A stretch of DNA of 5,819 nt from Acidobacteriota bacterium (GTDB lineage Bacteria > Acidobacteriota > Vicinamibacteria > Vicinamibacterales > Vicinamibacteraceae). A program made the translations under genes and the position numbers. The DNA lies in the NCBI GenBank assembly GCA_013695405.1, contig JACDAO010000292.1, forward strand, positions 1 to 5,819, written 5' to 3'. Below the pieces are notes generated by a model. It saw only the letters and a program-made list of their open reading frames with translations. It did not search any database and was not told where the DNA came from. Below, in pieces: positions 1-5,702 of this stretch. The stretch's first letter is position 1; each line of letters begins with the position of its first letter.

Positions 1-797
1 GTGATTCCGGCGCGACTGGCGGCGTCGGCGAATGCCGCGCCATCCAGGATCAGCGTACGCCCGGCGTCTATCGAGAGCAGCCTGATTCCCGCGTCCTGCA
101 AGACCGCCACGGTCGGCAGCCCGACCACGGGCACGTCGAAGCGCATGTCCTGGTCCGGCTTCGCTACCTTAATGACGCAGGCGCCAGGGCCGGCGATTCG
201 ACCGCCGCGGCGGATCGTCTCATCGGTCCCCTCCATCGCCTCGACGGCCACCACCGCGCGGTCCTTGACGACCAGGGTCTGGCCGATGTCCAGCCCGGCG
301 ACCGCGTCGGCCATCGTGTAGCCGAACGCCAGGTCGGCTTGCGCGGACTCGTCGGGCACCGGCCCGGCCAGATGCCCGTCGCCAGCCACCAGCGGTTGCA
401 GGAACGAGGTCGAGTCGAGCAGTTCGATGCCCTTGCCCTCGAGGACGTCGGCGATCGCCGCAATCAGCGCGTCGGTCGATTTGGCGCGTAGTCGCAGCAG
501 CACTTGCAGCAGCGTCCAGTCGGGCACGATGTTGGCGAACAGCTTGGCGTGCTTGACCTGCCCGGCCATGACCGCCTGCCGGCAGCCCGCGTCCTGGAGG
601 ATCTGGATGCAGGTGCCGAGCTGACCGAGCGACACCGTGTGCAGCGGCACCTGATGCGACGCCGCCAGCGCGACCAGGTCGGGGCCGGTCTCCTCCCTGA
701 CGGCCACCACGGTCACCGCGTGGCCTAGCGACCGCGCCGCCTCGAGCACGAGCAGCGGGAACCGGCCATTGCCGGCGATCAGTCCGAGGGGGGCCAT
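1..797 (-). CDS. lpxI: UDP-2,3-diacylglucosamine pyrophosphatase LpxI (3' end cut by window edge)
   Basis: LpxI (DUF1009 family) hydrolyses UDP-2,3-diacylglucosamine to lipid X and UMP in the cytoplasm. It is the non-homologous alternative to LpxH in the lipid A pathway. The frame is open from ATG 797-795 to the window edge, giving 265 residues without a stop. The family is usually about 270-290 residues, so only a short C-terminal tail should be missing. Family hallmarks are visible: the N-terminal GLIAGNGRFPLL (residues 5-16), MAGQVKHAKLF (77-87), the C-terminal-domain stretch LDIGQTLVVKD (169-179) followed by AVEAMEGTDETIRRGG (184-199), and KVAKPDQDMRFDVPVVGLPT (210-229). The start lies 14 bases after the fabZ-lpxA stop, which fits translational coupling. 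I see no Shine-Dalgarno in the GC-rich spacer, but the N-terminus matches the family, so the ATG is probably right. Recognition is by motif memory; the 3' boundary is not visible. Confidence 0.95.
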   Translation of the reverse strand, partial: MAPLGLIAGNGRFPLLVLEAARSLGHAVTVVAVREETGPDLVALAASHQVPLHTVSLGQLGTCIQILQDAGCRQAVMAGQVKHAKLFANIVPDWTLLQVLLRLRAKSTDALIAAIADVLEGKGIELLDSTSFLQPLVAGDGHLAGPVPDESAQADLAFGYTMADAVAGLDIGQTLVVKDRAVVAVEAMEGTDETIRRGGRIAGPGACVIKVAKPDQDMRFDVPVVGLPTVAVLQDAGIRLLSIDAGRTLILDGAAFADAASRAGI

Positions 798-811
798 GGC
801 GGGCGGCCGCG

Positions 812-2074
812 CTACTCGTCGGGCGAGACGTCCTCGAGCCGACGGGTCGCGCGGCGCAGGATCACCCCGCGCTTGGAGCCGCGGATGAAGTCGATCAGGT
901 ACTGGACCTCGGCGCAGCTCAGCTCGGGATCGTTCTCGATCTGGGCCAGCGCGCGGGTCGTGTTCAACTTCGAGAGCAGCAGGTAGCGATAGGCATGCCG
1001 CAGCCGTGTCACCACCTCGGAGGTGAAGCCGCGCCGCATCAGGCCGACTGTGTTCAGGCCGTAGTTGCGCGCCCGGTTGCCGACTGTCTTGGCAAATGGC
1101 AGGGCGTCTTTGGTGACCACCGAGTAGCCGCCAATGAAGGCGTAACTGCCGATCCGGCAGAACTGGTGCACGCCCGAGAACGCGCTGATCGTGGCGTAGT
1201 CCTCGACCTGCACGTGGCCGCCGAGCGTCGCGCCGTTGCCGAAGATGGTGTGGTGACCGACGCGGCAGTCGTGCGCGACGTGCGAGTAGGCCATGAACAG
1301 GTTGTGGTCGCCGATCCTGGTGACGCCGCCGCCGCCAGCGGTGCCGCGGTGGATCGTCACGAACTCACGGAAGACGTTGAAGGCGCCGATCTCGAGGCGG
1401 GTCGGCTCGCCGCGGAACTTGGTATCCTGCGGGATCAGGCCGATCGACGCGTACGGGAACACCTCGGTGCCCTCGCCAATCGAGGTCCAGCCTTCGACGA
1501 TCGCGCCCGCGCCGATCTTGCAGCGCGGCCCGATCGTCACGTGTGGCCCAATCACTGCGCCGGGCGCCACCACCGTGCCGGCCCCAATCGAGGCGCCGAC
1601 CTCGACGATGGCGGTCGGGTGGATGATCGCCGGCTCCGGCTCGATCGCCAGCACCAGCGTGCCCTCGGCGACGATTTGATCTTCGACGAAGGCGACCCCG
1701 CGAACCCGCGCCATGGTGCTGCGGCGCCGCTCGATGCTCAACTCGAGGCGGACGCAATCGCCAGGGCCGACCGGCCGGCGGAACTTGGCCCCGTCGACGC
1801 CGCGCAGGGAGGTGCGCTGCGGCAGGATGGTGCCGTCGGTGGACTGCAGCAGCAGCACGCTGGCCGCCTGCGCCATCGACTCGATCATCAGCACGCCCGG
1901 CATCAGCGGCGCGCCGGGAAAATGGCCCTGGAAGAAGCCCTCGTTGATTGTGACGTTCTTGATCGCCACCACTCGCTCACCGGCGATGAACTCGGTGACC
2001 GCATCGACCATCTGCAAGGGAAAGCGAGAACTCAGCCGGTCGACGACAGGTGGGAGGTTGATGGACACGGGCAT
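812..2074 (-). CDS. fabZ-lpxA: Fused 3-hydroxyacyl-ACP dehydratase FabZ / UDP-N-acetylglucosamine acyltransferase LpxA
   Basis: One uninterrupted 420-residue frame holds two complete cytoplasmic enzymes. Residues 1-143 are FabZ, a hotdog-fold dehydratase of fatty acid synthesis, with NEGFFQGHFPGAPLMPGVLM at 44-63. His51 and Glu65 match catalytic His54 and Glu68 of E. coli FabZ. Residues about 150-406 are LpxA, which moves a 3-hydroxyacyl chain from ACP to UDP-GlcNAc. It starts at HPTAIVEVGASIG (152-164) and carries left-handed beta-helix hexapeptides, QDTKFRGEPTRLEIG (216-230) and HRGT (242-245). His265, His268, His287 and His303 equal E. coli LpxA His122, catalytic His125, His144 and His160 at a constant offset of 143. 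The C-terminal helical domain includes GLMRRGF (344-350), and the last ~14 residues extend beyond E. coli LpxA. The stop is TAG at 814-812. ATG 2074 has no good Shine-Dalgarno; a GTG at codon 3 (2068-2066), preceded by GAG six bases upstream, is an alternative start. Confidence 0.97.
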   Translation of the reverse strand: MPVSINLPPVVDRLSSRFPLQMVDAVTEFIAGERVVAIKNVTINEGFFQGHFPGAPLMPGVLMIESMAQAASVLLLQSTDGTILPQRTSLRGVDGAKFRRPVGPGDCVRLELSIERRRSTMARVRGVAFVEDQIVAEGTLVLAIEPEPAIIHPTAIVEVGASIGAGTVVAPGAVIGPHVTIGPRCKIGAGAIVEGWTSIGEGTEVFPYASIGLIPQDTKFRGEPTRLEIGAFNVFREFVTIHRGTAGGGGVTRIGDHNLFMAYSHVAHDCRVGHHTIFGNGATLGGHVQVEDYATISAFSGVHQFCRIGSYAFIGGYSVVTKDALPFAKTVGNRARNYGLNTVGLMRRGFTSEVVTRLRHAYRYLLLSKLNTTRALAQIENDPELSCAEVQYLIDFIRGSKRGVILRRATRRLEDVSPDE

Positions 2075-2149: not shown

Positions 2150-2809
2150 CTACTTGGCTGCCGGCGCGGTGGCGGCGTCGAGCGCGGTCACGACGTCGGC
2201 CGTCACGTTCAGGCCCGAGTCCACCCAGACCACGCCGGCGTCGGCGATGCTGAGGATGAACTGCAGGTTCTTGGCCTTGGCCACCTGCTCGATGATCGGC
2301 AGCAGGCGCTGCTGGAAGGTCACCTGCAGTTCCTGCGTGAACTCCTGCACTTCCTGCTGCGCGTCCTGAGTCGCACGCTGCAGTTCGACCTGCAGCCGCT
2401 CCACTTCCTTCTGCTGCCCGCCACGGGCCGCGTCGCTCAGCACCGAACCGCCCTGTTCGAGCTTCTGCTGCGCCGCCTGCAACTGCTTCTGCCGGCCCTC
2501 GAGGTCGGACTGCTTCTTGGCTTGGAATTCCTTGATCTTGGCGCCCGCCGCCTGGCCTTCGCGGCTCTGGGTGGCGATGCCGTTCAGATCGACGTAGGCA
2601 ATCCTGGCGCCCTCGGGGAACGGACGCGGCGGCGACGCCGGTTGCGTCATCGCGGGCTGCGTCATCGCGGGCTGCGCGGGAGCGGGTCGCGCGGGCGCCG
2701 GTTGGGTGGTGGCCGGTGCCGCAGCCCCTGGTTTCGCAGGCGTTTGCGCAGCGACCGGACCGGCCACCAGCATCAGGCACGTCGTGGAGACGGCAATCAC
2801 GAACTTCAT
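2150..2809 (-). CDS. skp: Periplasmic chaperone Skp/OmpH family, with Pro/Ala-rich N-terminal linker
   Basis: Skp is a trimeric periplasmic holdase that binds unfolded outer-membrane proteins after Sec export and passes them to the BAM complex. The 219-residue product starts with a Sec signal peptide (MKFVIAVSTT, then a hydrophobic stretch), with likely signal peptidase I cleavage after VAA at residue 21. Residues 22-66 are a low-complexity Pro/Ala/Gln/Thr linker. The OmpH core follows: first beta strand ARIAYVDLNGIATQS (68-82), a long Gln/Glu/Lys-rich coiled-coil hairpin (about 85-175), and the closing strands LQFILSIADAGVVWVDSGLN (182-201) and a short helix. E. coli Skp is about 161 residues; most of the difference is the linker. 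Start 2809 is chosen because a clear Shine-Dalgarno precedes it and it begins the signal peptide; the open frame extends upstream into bamA but without family similarity. It sits 73 bases after bamA, its functional partner. Stop is TAG. Confidence 0.92.
   Translation of the reverse strand: MKFVIAVSTTCLMLVAGPVAAQTPAKPGAAAPATTQPAPARPAPAQPAMTQPAMTQPASPPRPFPEGARIAYVDLNGIATQSREGQAAGAKIKEFQAKKQSDLEGRQKQLQAAQQKLEQGGSVLSDAARGGQQKEVERLQVELQRATQDAQQEVQEFTQELQVTFQQRLLPIIEQVAKAKNLQFILSIADAGVVWVDSGLNVTADVVTALDAATAPAAK
2643..2672 (-). repeat. Perfect 15-bp tandem duplication encoding QPAMT-QPAMT in Skp linker
   Basis: The plus-strand unit TGCGTCATCGCGGGC occurs twice back to back (2643-2657 and 2658-2672), followed by a decayed partial copy starting TGCGCGGG. 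In the skp frame each copy encodes five residues, giving PAMTQPAMTQPA around residues 47-58. The unit length is a multiple of three, so copy-number change would keep the frame. It lies in the disordered Pro/Ala linker, not in the chaperone core. Confidence 0.9.
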
Positions 2810-2882: not shown

Positions 2883-5702
2883 CTAGAACGTCGAGCCCAC
2901 CGCGAACCGGAACTGGAACTTCCTGGCCGGGGTGTAATCGTTGTTGAGCACGCCGTCACGCTGCGGGTTTGCCGCGAAGATCAGGCGGAACGGCACGTTG
3001 AGTACCGGCATGAAGAACCGCACCTCGGCGCCGGTCGAGGTCTTGAACTCGTTGAAGGCGAAGCGCTCGCGGCTGTCGCGCACCTGCCCGGCATCGTAGA
3101 ACAGCACCAGCCGGACCGGGCCGGCGATGCTGATCAGGTACTCGGCGTTGAACAGCAAACTCTTGTTGCCACCGAGCACGACGCCACTGCCCGGGTTGTC
3201 GACCGTGCCGACGTCGCGCGGGCCGATGCTGCGGACATCGAAGCCGCGCACGCTGAACTCTCCGCCCTGGACCAGGCGCTCGAAGATCGGCAACGGCAGC
3301 GTGTCGCCATAGGCGCGAATGTACTCGCCCTCGACGCGGAAGCCGAACGACGTGCGGCGCGTGTGCTGCAGGAACTGCGCGTACTCGATCCGCGGCTTGA
3401 GGAATTTGGTGTTGCCACCGAGGCCGGCCACGTCCATTGACGCGGTGAAGCGCGTGCCGGTGTTCGGGAAGATCGGGTTGTCGACCGTGTTGTGAACGAA
3501 GCTCGGGACGAACTTGCTGATCGTGCGTGCGCCGCCCGGCAAACAGGTGCGGCCGCCCGCGGGGTTCTCGACGGTCGGCGGCGCGTCCTGGCACCGTAGC
3601 AGCAGCGAGTCCTGCAGGAACGGGTTGCGGCCGATCACCGACTCGTCGGTGAAGGCCGACGCCAGATCACTGATCGTCACCCGCTCGAAGCTGTACTGCA
3701 TGAAGGTGCGCGTGAAGTTGGCAACCGGGAAGCCCCACACCGTGTTCACGCCGGTGGTCTGCTGCGTGAAGGCCCCGATGTACTGGATGCCGCGCCGTGA
3801 GACATCGATGCCGGCGGTGATCGGGCGATCGAACAGGTACGGCTCGGTGAAGGCGACCTGGTAGAACTGGGTCCGCGAGCCGGCTGCCAGCGACAGCGAC
3901 AGCGTCTCGCCGCGGCCGAGGAAGTTGGAGGTCGCAAAGGCCAGCTGACCGAAGAACCCTTCGAACTGCGAGATGCCGGCACCGAAGGTCAGCTGGTTGC
4001 GGTTCTGTTCCTGCAGGCTCAGGGTGACGTCGACCTTGTTCTTCTCGCCCTCGGTCTTCTTGACGTCGATCCCTTCCTTGCCTTCTTCGAGCTGCTTGAA
4101 GTACCCGAGCTGGTTGAGGCGCCGGACGCTGTTCTTGAGCGCTTCGGTGTTGAAGACGCCACCTTCGAGCAGGTTCAGTTCGCGGCGAATCACGTTGTCG
4201 CGCGTCGTCGAGTTGCCGATGAAGGTGATCCGGTTGATGAAGTACTGCTCGCCCTCCTGCATCCGCATTGTCACGTCGACGACCGGCGGGCCGTTGGGCG
4301 CGGCGCCGTCGGCGAGGAACTGTTCGGGATTGGCGGGGTCGACCAGGTCGAGCGGCTTGAGGTCCGGGAAGCCGGTGAATTCGAAGTACCCGCCCATGCC
4401 ATACAGCTCGCGGGCCTTCTCGAGGCCCTTGCGAACCTTCTTCTCGGAGTAGTAGTCGCCGGCCTTGAGCTTGAAGATCGGCTGCAGCGCCTCGCCCTTG
4501 ACCACGGTGTTGCCTTCGAAGGCAAAGGTACCCACACGATAGCGCCGCCCTTCGGTGACCGGAATGCGCAGCTGCACGGCGCGGGTCTCGCCGTTCTGCG
4601 AGGTCTCGAGGGTGCGGATCTCGGGTTGCCCGACCCGGGCCGCAATGTAACCCTCCTCTCGGTACAGGCTGCGGACGTTCTCGGCGTCTTCCTCGAACTT
4701 GGCCTGCTGATAGACGCCCTTGCCGGTGAGGAAGGACAGGAAGTTACGCTCCTTGTTCTCCTTCATCGCCCGCTTCAACTTGCCATCGCCCATCGCCGTG
4801 TTGCCGACGAAATCGATGTCGCGGATCTGCACCTTCGGGCCGTCGACGATGTTGAAGGACAGGTTGACCAGCTTCGGCCCCCCGGCGACCGGCGTCACCA
4901 CGTGCGAGACCTCGGCATCGAGATAGCCCTTCTCGGCGAGCATCTCGCGGACCACGCTCTCGACGCGGCGGATCTGGCCGGGGTCGATGAACGAGTCGAG
5001 GCGAATCACGTTGTTGATCTCGCGCAGTTTCTCGTCGACCTTGGTCGACTCGATCTTCTTGCTGCCGACGTACTCGACGATCTTGACGCGCTGCCGCTCT
5101 TCCATCCGGAAGCGCACGTACTTGCCGACCACGCCGTTGGGATACGGCGTGTCGAGCACCTCGACGGCGAGGTCGTCGAGGAAGTTGGTAGCCCACAGCC
5201 GGCGGAAGTCCTCGACGAGATCCTGCTCGACCTCCGCCGTGAATGGCACCCAGGCGTTCTGCGACGGGCGGCTGCCGCGGGCCTTGACGTAGAACAGGTA
5301 GGTCTCGAACTCGATCGCCGAGACGTTGCCCTGGGTCGGGAAACAGAGTTCGACCTGCCGCAGCACGGCGCCGGAGTTGGCCGGGGGCTGGGCCGAGGCG
5401 CTGGTCGCGGCGATCGGCTGACAGCCGTCAGTGTCGAGCACGCTCTTGACCACCGTCTCGGTCGGAGTCGGGGCCGGCGTGTCCTGACTGAGCGGCGGGA
5501 CGGCGACTGGCGCGGGCGTCGTGCCCGGCCCGGTCGGCACCACATCGGGCGGCGGTGCCGGAGACTGCGGCGTCGTCGGCAGGGGCGGCTGAGGGGCCGA
5601 GGGCGGCTTCTGGGGCGAGGTCTGCGGCTGGGCCGACGCGGACGCGGCCGACAGCGCCCAGAGGGCCAGACCCAGCACCCTGGCAGGGGTCACAATTCTC
5701 AT
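2883..5702 (-). CDS. bamA: Outer membrane protein assembly factor BamA (five POTRA domains plus beta barrel)
   Basis: BamA (Omp85 family) folds and inserts beta barrels into the outer membrane. The 939-residue product has a signal peptide (MRIVTPARVLGLALWALSA, likely cut after ASA at residue 24) and a Pro-rich stretch at 25-82. Five POTRA repeats follow at about 115-203, 204-291, 292-387, 388-487 and 488-568; POTRA 3-5 show the typical strand openings DIDFVGNT (295-302), TFAFEGNT (392-399) and RITFIGNS (491-498). The 16-strand barrel spans about 570-939, with NFLGRGE (593-599), the conserved loop-6 motif GGEFSVRGFD (813-822) and a terminal Phe ending the beta-signal FRFAVGSTF. E. coli BamA is about 810 residues; the extra length is mainly the Pro-rich region, a longer POTRA4 and barrel loops. 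Start 5702 begins the signal peptide but lacks a Shine-Dalgarno; ATG 5735 would add 11 residues and is a fair alternative. Stop is TAG at 2885-2883. No lipoprotein partner gene is in the window. Confidence 0.97.
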   Translation of the reverse strand: MRIVTPARVLGLALWALSAASASAQPQTSPQKPPSAPQPPLPTTPQSPAPPPDVVPTGPGTTPAPVAVPPLSQDTPAPTPTETVVKSVLDTDGCQPIAATSASAQPPANSGAVLRQVELCFPTQGNVSAIEFETYLFYVKARGSRPSQNAWVPFTAEVEQDLVEDFRRLWATNFLDDLAVEVLDTPYPNGVVGKYVRFRMEERQRVKIVEYVGSKKIESTKVDEKLREINNVIRLDSFIDPGQIRRVESVVREMLAEKGYLDAEVSHVVTPVAGGPKLVNLSFNIVDGPKVQIRDIDFVGNTAMGDGKLKRAMKENKERNFLSFLTGKGVYQQAKFEEDAENVRSLYREEGYIAARVGQPEIRTLETSQNGETRAVQLRIPVTEGRRYRVGTFAFEGNTVVKGEALQPIFKLKAGDYYSEKKVRKGLEKARELYGMGGYFEFTGFPDLKPLDLVDPANPEQFLADGAAPNGPPVVDVTMRMQEGEQYFINRITFIGNSTTRDNVIRRELNLLEGGVFNTEALKNSVRRLNQLGYFKQLEEGKEGIDVKKTEGEKNKVDVTLSLQEQNRNQLTFGAGISQFEGFFGQLAFATSNFLGRGETLSLSLAAGSRTQFYQVAFTEPYLFDRPITAGIDVSRRGIQYIGAFTQQTTGVNTVWGFPVANFTRTFMQYSFERVTISDLASAFTDESVIGRNPFLQDSLLLRCQDAPPTVENPAGGRTCLPGGARTISKFVPSFVHNTVDNPIFPNTGTRFTASMDVAGLGGNTKFLKPRIEYAQFLQHTRRTSFGFRVEGEYIRAYGDTLPLPIFERLVQGGEFSVRGFDVRSIGPRDVGTVDNPGSGVVLGGNKSLLFNAEYLISIAGPVRLVLFYDAGQVRDSRERFAFNEFKTSTGAEVRFFMPVLNVPFRLIFAANPQRDGVLNNDYTPARKFQFRFAVGSTF

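Follow-up and report, generated by a model that had tools for sequence, protein, structure and literature searches.

In E. coli, FabZ and LpxA are separate proteins, and the balance between phospholipid and LPS depends on their competition together with the turnover of LpxC, an enzyme which, unlike LpxA, does not use the acyl-ACP substrate of FabZ. In two papers on E. coli, the substrate for which FabZ and LpxA compete is 3-hydroxymyristoyl-ACP, and LpxC catalyses the committed step (PMC12444477, PMC6339880). The joining of FabZ to an early enzyme of lipid A synthesis has a precedent in the LpxC–FabZ proteins (NCBIfam NF009667), which, according to PMC3087551, occur in Bacteroidetes, Chlorobi and Verrucomicrobia and derive from an lpxD-lpxC-fabZ-lpxA cluster, fabZ being present in the majority of lpx clusters. 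These are the proteins that the original prediction had named as the known fusion of the pathway. The protein described here differs from them in that LpxA lies downstream of FabZ, whereas LpxC lies upstream of FabZ there; it has no LpxC domain according to Pfam, and NF009667 matches its FabZ part only, scoring 138 bits where the cut-off is 465. With the separate fabZ and lpxA genes of the E. coli-type lpxD-fabZ-lpxA cluster and of other Acidobacteriota it shares homologous halves in the same order and, in part of the acidobacterial loci, the neighbours bamA, ompH and lpxI. There, however, two polypeptides are produced, their genes often lying one stop codon apart in Acidobacteriota.

No FabZ–LpxA fusion model figured among 25 listed of 28 NCBIfam families, and no description of such a fusion was found in the open-licence PMC literature, in so far as its text was accessible, which is no proof of its being unpublished. 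The original prediction had left open whether the pairing was undescribed; that doubt is answered in part, by this literature result, by the class-wide occurrence of the fusion and by its apparent second origin in Margulisiibacteriota. While a fusion at the junction of FabZ and lipid A synthesis is known, the FabZ–LpxA pairing, its class-wide fixation, the second origin indicated by our trees and a His-less FabZ paralogue set this one apart. Judged from its sequence, the single polypeptide, composed of a complete FabZ domain followed by a complete LpxA domain, on balance seems to work as a bifunctional enzyme, in which the sites for elongation dehydration and those for starting lipid A would be numerically locked to each other. 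A class with both competitors in one protein would offer a natural experiment on the phospholipid/LPS balance at an unchangeable ratio.

The fusion gene and its product

The window, i.e. the whole stretch of DNA that was analysed (5,819 nucleotides), contains the following features:

3..797, minus strand: lpxI (UDP-2,3-diacylglucosamine diphosphatase), running off the contig end; Pfam LpxI_N/LpxI_C
812..2074, minus strand: fabZ-lpxA fusion gene, 420 aa; single ORF with NCBIfam and Pfam domains
815..1627, minus strand: LpxA half, residues 150–420, predicted left-handed beta helix and C-terminal helices
1271–1273, minus strand: LpxA catalytic His268
1628..1636, minus strand: junction, residues 147–149, from predicted secondary structure and the alignment of fusion rows
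1637..2074, minus strand: FabZ half, residues 1–146, hotdog fold
1880–1882, minus strand: FabZ catalytic Glu65
1922–1924, minus strand: FabZ catalytic His51
2150..2809, minus strand: ompH/skp chaperone gene; Pfam OmpH
2883..5699, minus strand: bamA, start codon assumed at 5699; NCBIfam TIGR03303, 447 bits; Pfam POTRA/Omp85

The fusion ORF runs from an ATG at 2074 to a stop at 812 on the minus strand without internal stops. In NCBIfam, residues 10–143 match FabZ and residues 150–406 match LpxA, and Pfam gives the same two-domain reading of the 420-aa protein, so that the predicted fusion of full-length FabZ and LpxA in one uninterrupted frame is borne out. The FabZ half scored 142.4 bits with NF000582, above the cut-off of 113, and 143 bits with TIGR01750, below the stricter cut-off of 155.15; the LpxA half exceeded the cut-offs of both NF003657 (332 versus 226) and TIGR01852 (307.7 versus 231.05). 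The neighbouring lpxI product reached 122.5 bits with NCBIfam NF047836, below its cut-off of 400. A long plus-strand ORF (995–2947) overlaps the fusion region, antisense to the fusion gene, and most probably arises as a by-product of codon use at high GC content.

Conservation was assessed in an alignment of 67 fusion rows, 65 from Vicinamibacteria (59 of them distinct) and two from Margulisiibacteriota, from which four repeat loci had first been dropped. His51 and Glu65, the pair of the FabZ motif GHFPGxPxxPGVLxxE, and His265, His268, His287 and His303 of LpxA are invariant in all 67 rows; the catalytic residues lie where they had been predicted to be. Asp269 is found in 66 rows, the exception (L074) having Asn, and Gly316 is kept as Gly in 64. 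By alignment to 1lxa, His268, His287, His303 and Gly316 correspond to E. coli positions 125, 144, 160 and 173. We take the histidines at E. coli 122, 144 and 160 (His265, His287 and His303 here) to act alongside the catalytic one at 125 (His268), and Gly173 is presumably the chain-length ruler. The spacer from alignment position 143 to position 150 has six residues in 42 of the 67 rows, the range being 5–21.

In ten within-genus pairs, dN/dS was 0.04–0.19 for the FabZ half and 0.055–0.27 for the LpxA half; with values well below 1 in all ten, both halves are under purifying selection. Decay of the FabZ half in some lineages was considered and rejected, the three rows that lack GHF reading GHY, with His and Glu retained. 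The predicted structure consists of a hotdog domain, whose final strand ends at about residue 146, followed by the beta helix. With a mean pLDDT of 76.8 and a pTM of 0.58, the relative placing of the two domains is unreliable. The hotdog fold of the model resembles that of solved FabZ structures, and FabZ chains alone were among the 50 Foldseek matches listed; solved LpxA chains were matched, with high rmsd, in a separate structure comparison.

Distribution and origin of the fusion

Two partly overlapping samples were searched: 60 genomes, comprising the source genome and 59 relatives from the same genus, family or order, and 396 genomes from across the phylum. Together they include 73 genomes of Vicinamibacteria, the class of soil bacteria that contains the order Vicinamibacterales. 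A single open frame covers both halves in 70 of these 73 and, in the sample of 60, crosses the junction in 58, including the single-contig genomes G001 and G002. The gene of G005 is fused, with some 20 extra residues inserted in the FabZ half; in G042, G049 and G401 contig ends truncate the gene, yet the frame spans the junction. G029 has the C-terminal piece alone, at a contig start, and a genome search of G326 did not find the fusion gene, though lpxC is present. G058 encodes an LpxA without an adjoining FabZ near a contig end (L134, G058:C108), where either the locus is rearranged or the contig is chimeric. By eye, the region upstream of LpxA at that locus resembles a response regulator on the opposite strand.

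The 16 closest named public loci (L046–L061; 13 labelled Acidobacteria, two Vicinamibacterales and one Acidimicrobiia) are likewise all fused, although some may come from the same genomes as the sample of 60. A protein-database search gave 7,998 scored matches, and every one of the best 120 has FabA-type and LpxA-type domains. They include a ‘Luteitalea sp.’ protein (87%), the nearest match named to genus, which is annotated solely as an LpxA enzyme. The database further contains a 93% relative and a four-member cluster at 100% identity, the longest contig of which has 7,838 bases, so that a contig other than that of the source is included.

The source contig is short and comes from an assembly of 831 contigs, and one might suppose that sequencing or assembly error had erased a stop codon or frameshift separating the genes, a possibility for which the original prediction named the region near 1620–1650. 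Given the identical frame in 58 of 60 genomes, two of them single-contig, the 16 fused named loci, the 100%-identity cluster and the 93% relative, such an error has a negligible probability, and an artefact of assembly is refuted by the recurrence of the fusion across relatives. Nor do the sampled close relatives carry separate genes at this locus, the other circumstance that would have spoken against the prediction. As for a second stand-alone fabZ or lpxA, the source assembly does contain a FabZ paralogue, described below, but a genome search found no second LpxA match in it. In four genomes, all from a single family (f14), there is a stand-alone LpxA-like match as well, which is 37–41% identical to the fused LpxA (G019:C33, G028:C7, G037:C23 and G054:C9; L142, L143).

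The usual gene order in the class is bamA-ompH-[fabZ-lpxA]-lpxI. It was found in 20 of 21 loci of the order, the exception (L053) being a short contig that lacks BamA, and in two of four loci from other families of the class; OmpH was not found in the stretch of L137, nor BamA and OmpH in that of L136. Outside the class, all 20 of the phylum matches listed that span both halves contain at least one internal stop. In 17 of 20 outgroup loci, the stop-to-stop frames of FabZ and LpxA abut in frame, one stop apart, in a sample that is biased towards same-frame pairs because it was picked from the best matches spanning both halves. Three of the 20 (L149, L151 and L155) display the separate-gene version of the class order; eight have OmpH > LpxD > FabZ > LpxA, and one further locus has LpxD > FabZ > LpxA with OmpH absent from the stretch. 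From the neighbour orders in fused and separate-gene acidobacterial loci, it is likely that in an ancestor of the class LpxD was lost from the cluster and the stop codon separating fabZ from lpxA disappeared. LpxC and LpxD are encoded away from the fusion locus in 57 and 58 of the 60 genomes, respectively (LpxC of the source genome is a separate gene on G000:C140), and gene order therefore implies no larger complex.

In the careful combined tree of 52 loci, built on both domains, the 14 Vicinamibacteria fusions form one clade (bootstrap 100, SH-aLRT 99), nested within the group of acidobacterial separate-gene loci plus one further bacterial locus, L079 (100/100). This topology indicates a single origin of the fusion within Vicinamibacteria. 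Earlier quick trees of FabZ alone and of LpxA alone were poorly resolved; that of LpxA did not join the two fused groups of the class, contrary to a single origin. Since clade tests on the quick trees gave better trees when clades, that of the Vicinamibacteria plus Margulisiibacteriota fusions included, were enforced, they were replaced by the careful combined and FabZ trees.

Of the 80 named loci, 64 remain, and two of these are fused as well, L074 and L084, both from WOR-1/Margulisiibacteriota. A search with the L074 protein gave 7,977 matches; the best 120 all measure 408–429 aa and combine FabA-type with LpxA-type domains, and those named belong to Margulisbacteria/Margulisiibacteriota, Saganbacteria, WOR-1 and one ‘Sulfotelmatobacter’ bin. 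These proteins have the same two domains in the same order and a similar length (about 425 aa), and the FabZ His and Glu and the LpxA histidines are retained in both rows. Their halves, however, are only 37–41% identical to those of the source protein, and in the two stretches examined there was no match to the BamA, OmpH or LpxI of the window. The earlier quick-tree tests had not rejected a joint clade of the Vicinamibacteria and Margulisiibacteriota fusions. With the careful combined tree such a clade is rejected (AU p 0.008), which points to a second, separate origin in Margulisiibacteriota.

The strongest alternative to a bifunctional enzyme is a neutral one, in which loss of a stop joined co-transcribed neighbours lying in the same frame, the domains act independently and the fusion has no regulatory meaning. 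The one-stop-apart pairs of the outgroup loci, with the bias noted above, would be suitable starting material for such an event, and LpxC–FabZ fusions, for which we know of no demonstrated coupling, exist elsewhere. On the other hand, the fusion was retained in 70 of 73 class genomes, the same genes were apparently fused a second time in the same order, and the junction is short in most rows, all of which is still compatible with neutrality and inertia. Taken together, a neutral fusion is a tenable but distinctly less probable explanation.

FabZ2 and other FabA/FabZ-family proteins

A stand-alone FabZ paralogue, here called FabZ2, is encoded in 58 of the 60 genomes (none was detected in G012 or G032) and is 30–39% identical to the fused half. 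That of the source genome lies at L126:1772-2347 (G000:C408), and FabZ2 and the fusion are the two PF07977 members of the source assembly. In all 59 FabZ2 sequences read from genomes of the order (the 58 and that of G326), a variant of ...LPPTILTEAVAQV stands in place of GHFPG...PGVL..E. All 59 retain the Glu, and two have a His in the His column (L213, within a His run, and L220, beside a gap), neither inside GHFPG. FabZ2 is also His-less in three of three genomes of another family of the class and was not found in G412, a class genome of a further family. The three rows scored passed NF000582 (136.9–140 bits, cut-off 113) and fell below TIGR01750 (124.5–128.9 bits, cut-off 155.15). Annotators of these genomes thus face a trap: a standard FabZ model accepts the stand-alone protein, in which the catalytic His motif is missing, while the intact FabZ is concealed by an annotation as LpxA. 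In the two loci scanned, genes for a GAF/SpoIIE phosphatase and a histidine kinase are found close to FabZ2.

One of eight outgroup loci read, from another class of Acidobacteriota (L301, G084:C226:70800-71600), encodes a His-less FabZ; such paralogues therefore extend beyond the fusion class, and the idea that FabZ2 is unique to that class did not hold. The careful FabZ tree groups FabZ2 in one clade (100/100) and fused FabZ in another (100/97), both within the operon-FabZ group (96/82), and their sisterhood is neither supported nor rejected (p 0.31). FabZ2 might form mixed dimers with fused FabZ or have a function other than dehydration. A more elaborate proposal, which we consider unlikely, is that fused FabZ is the sole true elongation dehydratase and FabZ2 its regulator through mixed dimers, signals from the nearby kinase and phosphatase tuning dehydration versus lipid A initiation on one particle.

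Whether the fused FabZ is the main dehydratase depends on what else the genomes encode. In 40 of the 60 genomes, including that of the source (in G029 the fusion is itself truncated), PF07977 members other than the fusion and FabZ2 were not found by a search of limited sensitivity, which in at least one genome (G023) missed a FabZ2 recovered by protein search. In the remaining 20, further FabA/FabZ-family proteins are present. All four sampled congeners (G001–G004) have a third FabZ-like protein with the motif HFPGxPVVPA...E or a close variant (HFPD in G001), the Glu being kept; the two scanned scored 61–74 bits against cut-offs of 113 and 155 (G001:C1:6597282-6597662 and G002:C1:5449588-5449983; L272, L265). 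Neither this protein nor a MaoC-family (PF01575) match was found in the source assembly. Since that assembly is 94.7% complete and smaller than those of the congeners, the absence of other dehydratases from it is weak evidence, and the third gene may simply be missing; the count of 40 genomes is a better argument for fused FabZ as dehydratase than absence from the source genome. Given those 40 genomes, the main dehydratase for elongation is likely the one within the fusion.

The third protein of the congeners, with its His and Glu, would fit another scheme, in which the FabZ half mainly serves LpxA, either holding acyl-ACP or, the FabZ reaction being reversible, hydrating enoyl-ACP to 3-hydroxyacyl-ACP, while another protein dehydrates for elongation. 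In PMC12444477 the LpxA step is described as thermodynamically unfavourable, so that a local supply of substrate could help. This scheme is difficult to reconcile with the 40 genomes that have no FabA/FabZ-family protein besides the fusion and His-less FabZ2, and with the lack of a MaoC-family match in the source assembly; we regard it as improbable. The clade with HFPGxPVVPA..LIE or a near variant also occurs in several genomes besides the four congeners, and ORFs of 2346–2504 aa with at least two FabA-type domains were observed in G013:C20, G058:C159 and G059:C21 (L184–L186); the latter are perhaps, at a guess, polyunsaturated fatty acid or polyketide synthases.

Proposed role of the fusion

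FabZ usually forms a trimer of dimers, LpxA a trimer, and with these oligomers the bifunctional enzyme could assemble into a particle of six chains. The 3-hydroxyacyl-ACP made by FabG would meet both active sites on this one particle and would be either dehydrated by the FabZ domain and elongated towards phospholipid, or used by the LpxA domain, which would move the 3-hydroxyacyl group to UDP-GlcNAc; acyl-ACP might also be handed over between the fused domains. Because the stand-alone FabZ2 lacks the catalytic His motif, the ratio of FabZ to LpxA could likely no longer be adjusted through expression levels, as E. coli genetics has shown to be possible there. With FabZ and LpxA on a single polypeptide, and hence equal numbers of FabZ and LpxA sites, control would lie elsewhere, the split between phospholipid and lipid A probably being set by chain-length preference and the pull of LpxC.

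This reasoning extends the original prediction that fusion fixes the ratio at 1:1, which holds only if no other dehydratase works. That FabZ2, present in 58 of 60 genomes, is His-less agrees with it; the further FabA/FabZ-family proteins of 20 genomes, among them all four congeners, do not. The reading that FabZ2 itself breaks the 1:1 argument had been considered and was dropped, its catalytic His motif being absent.

The ratio would also not be fixed if an internal start at the junction yielded free LpxA in addition to the fusion. We think this quite doubtful, since 43 of 59 genes have no such start and its codon position varies among the rows inspected. Nevertheless, an in-frame ATG, GTG or TTG with an SD-like stretch of at least four bases occurs at the junction in the other 16 genes, as compared with 68 of 964 control stretches. 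The source gene has a GTG at codon 141, and with the SD-like stretch at this internal start some free LpxA could be made.
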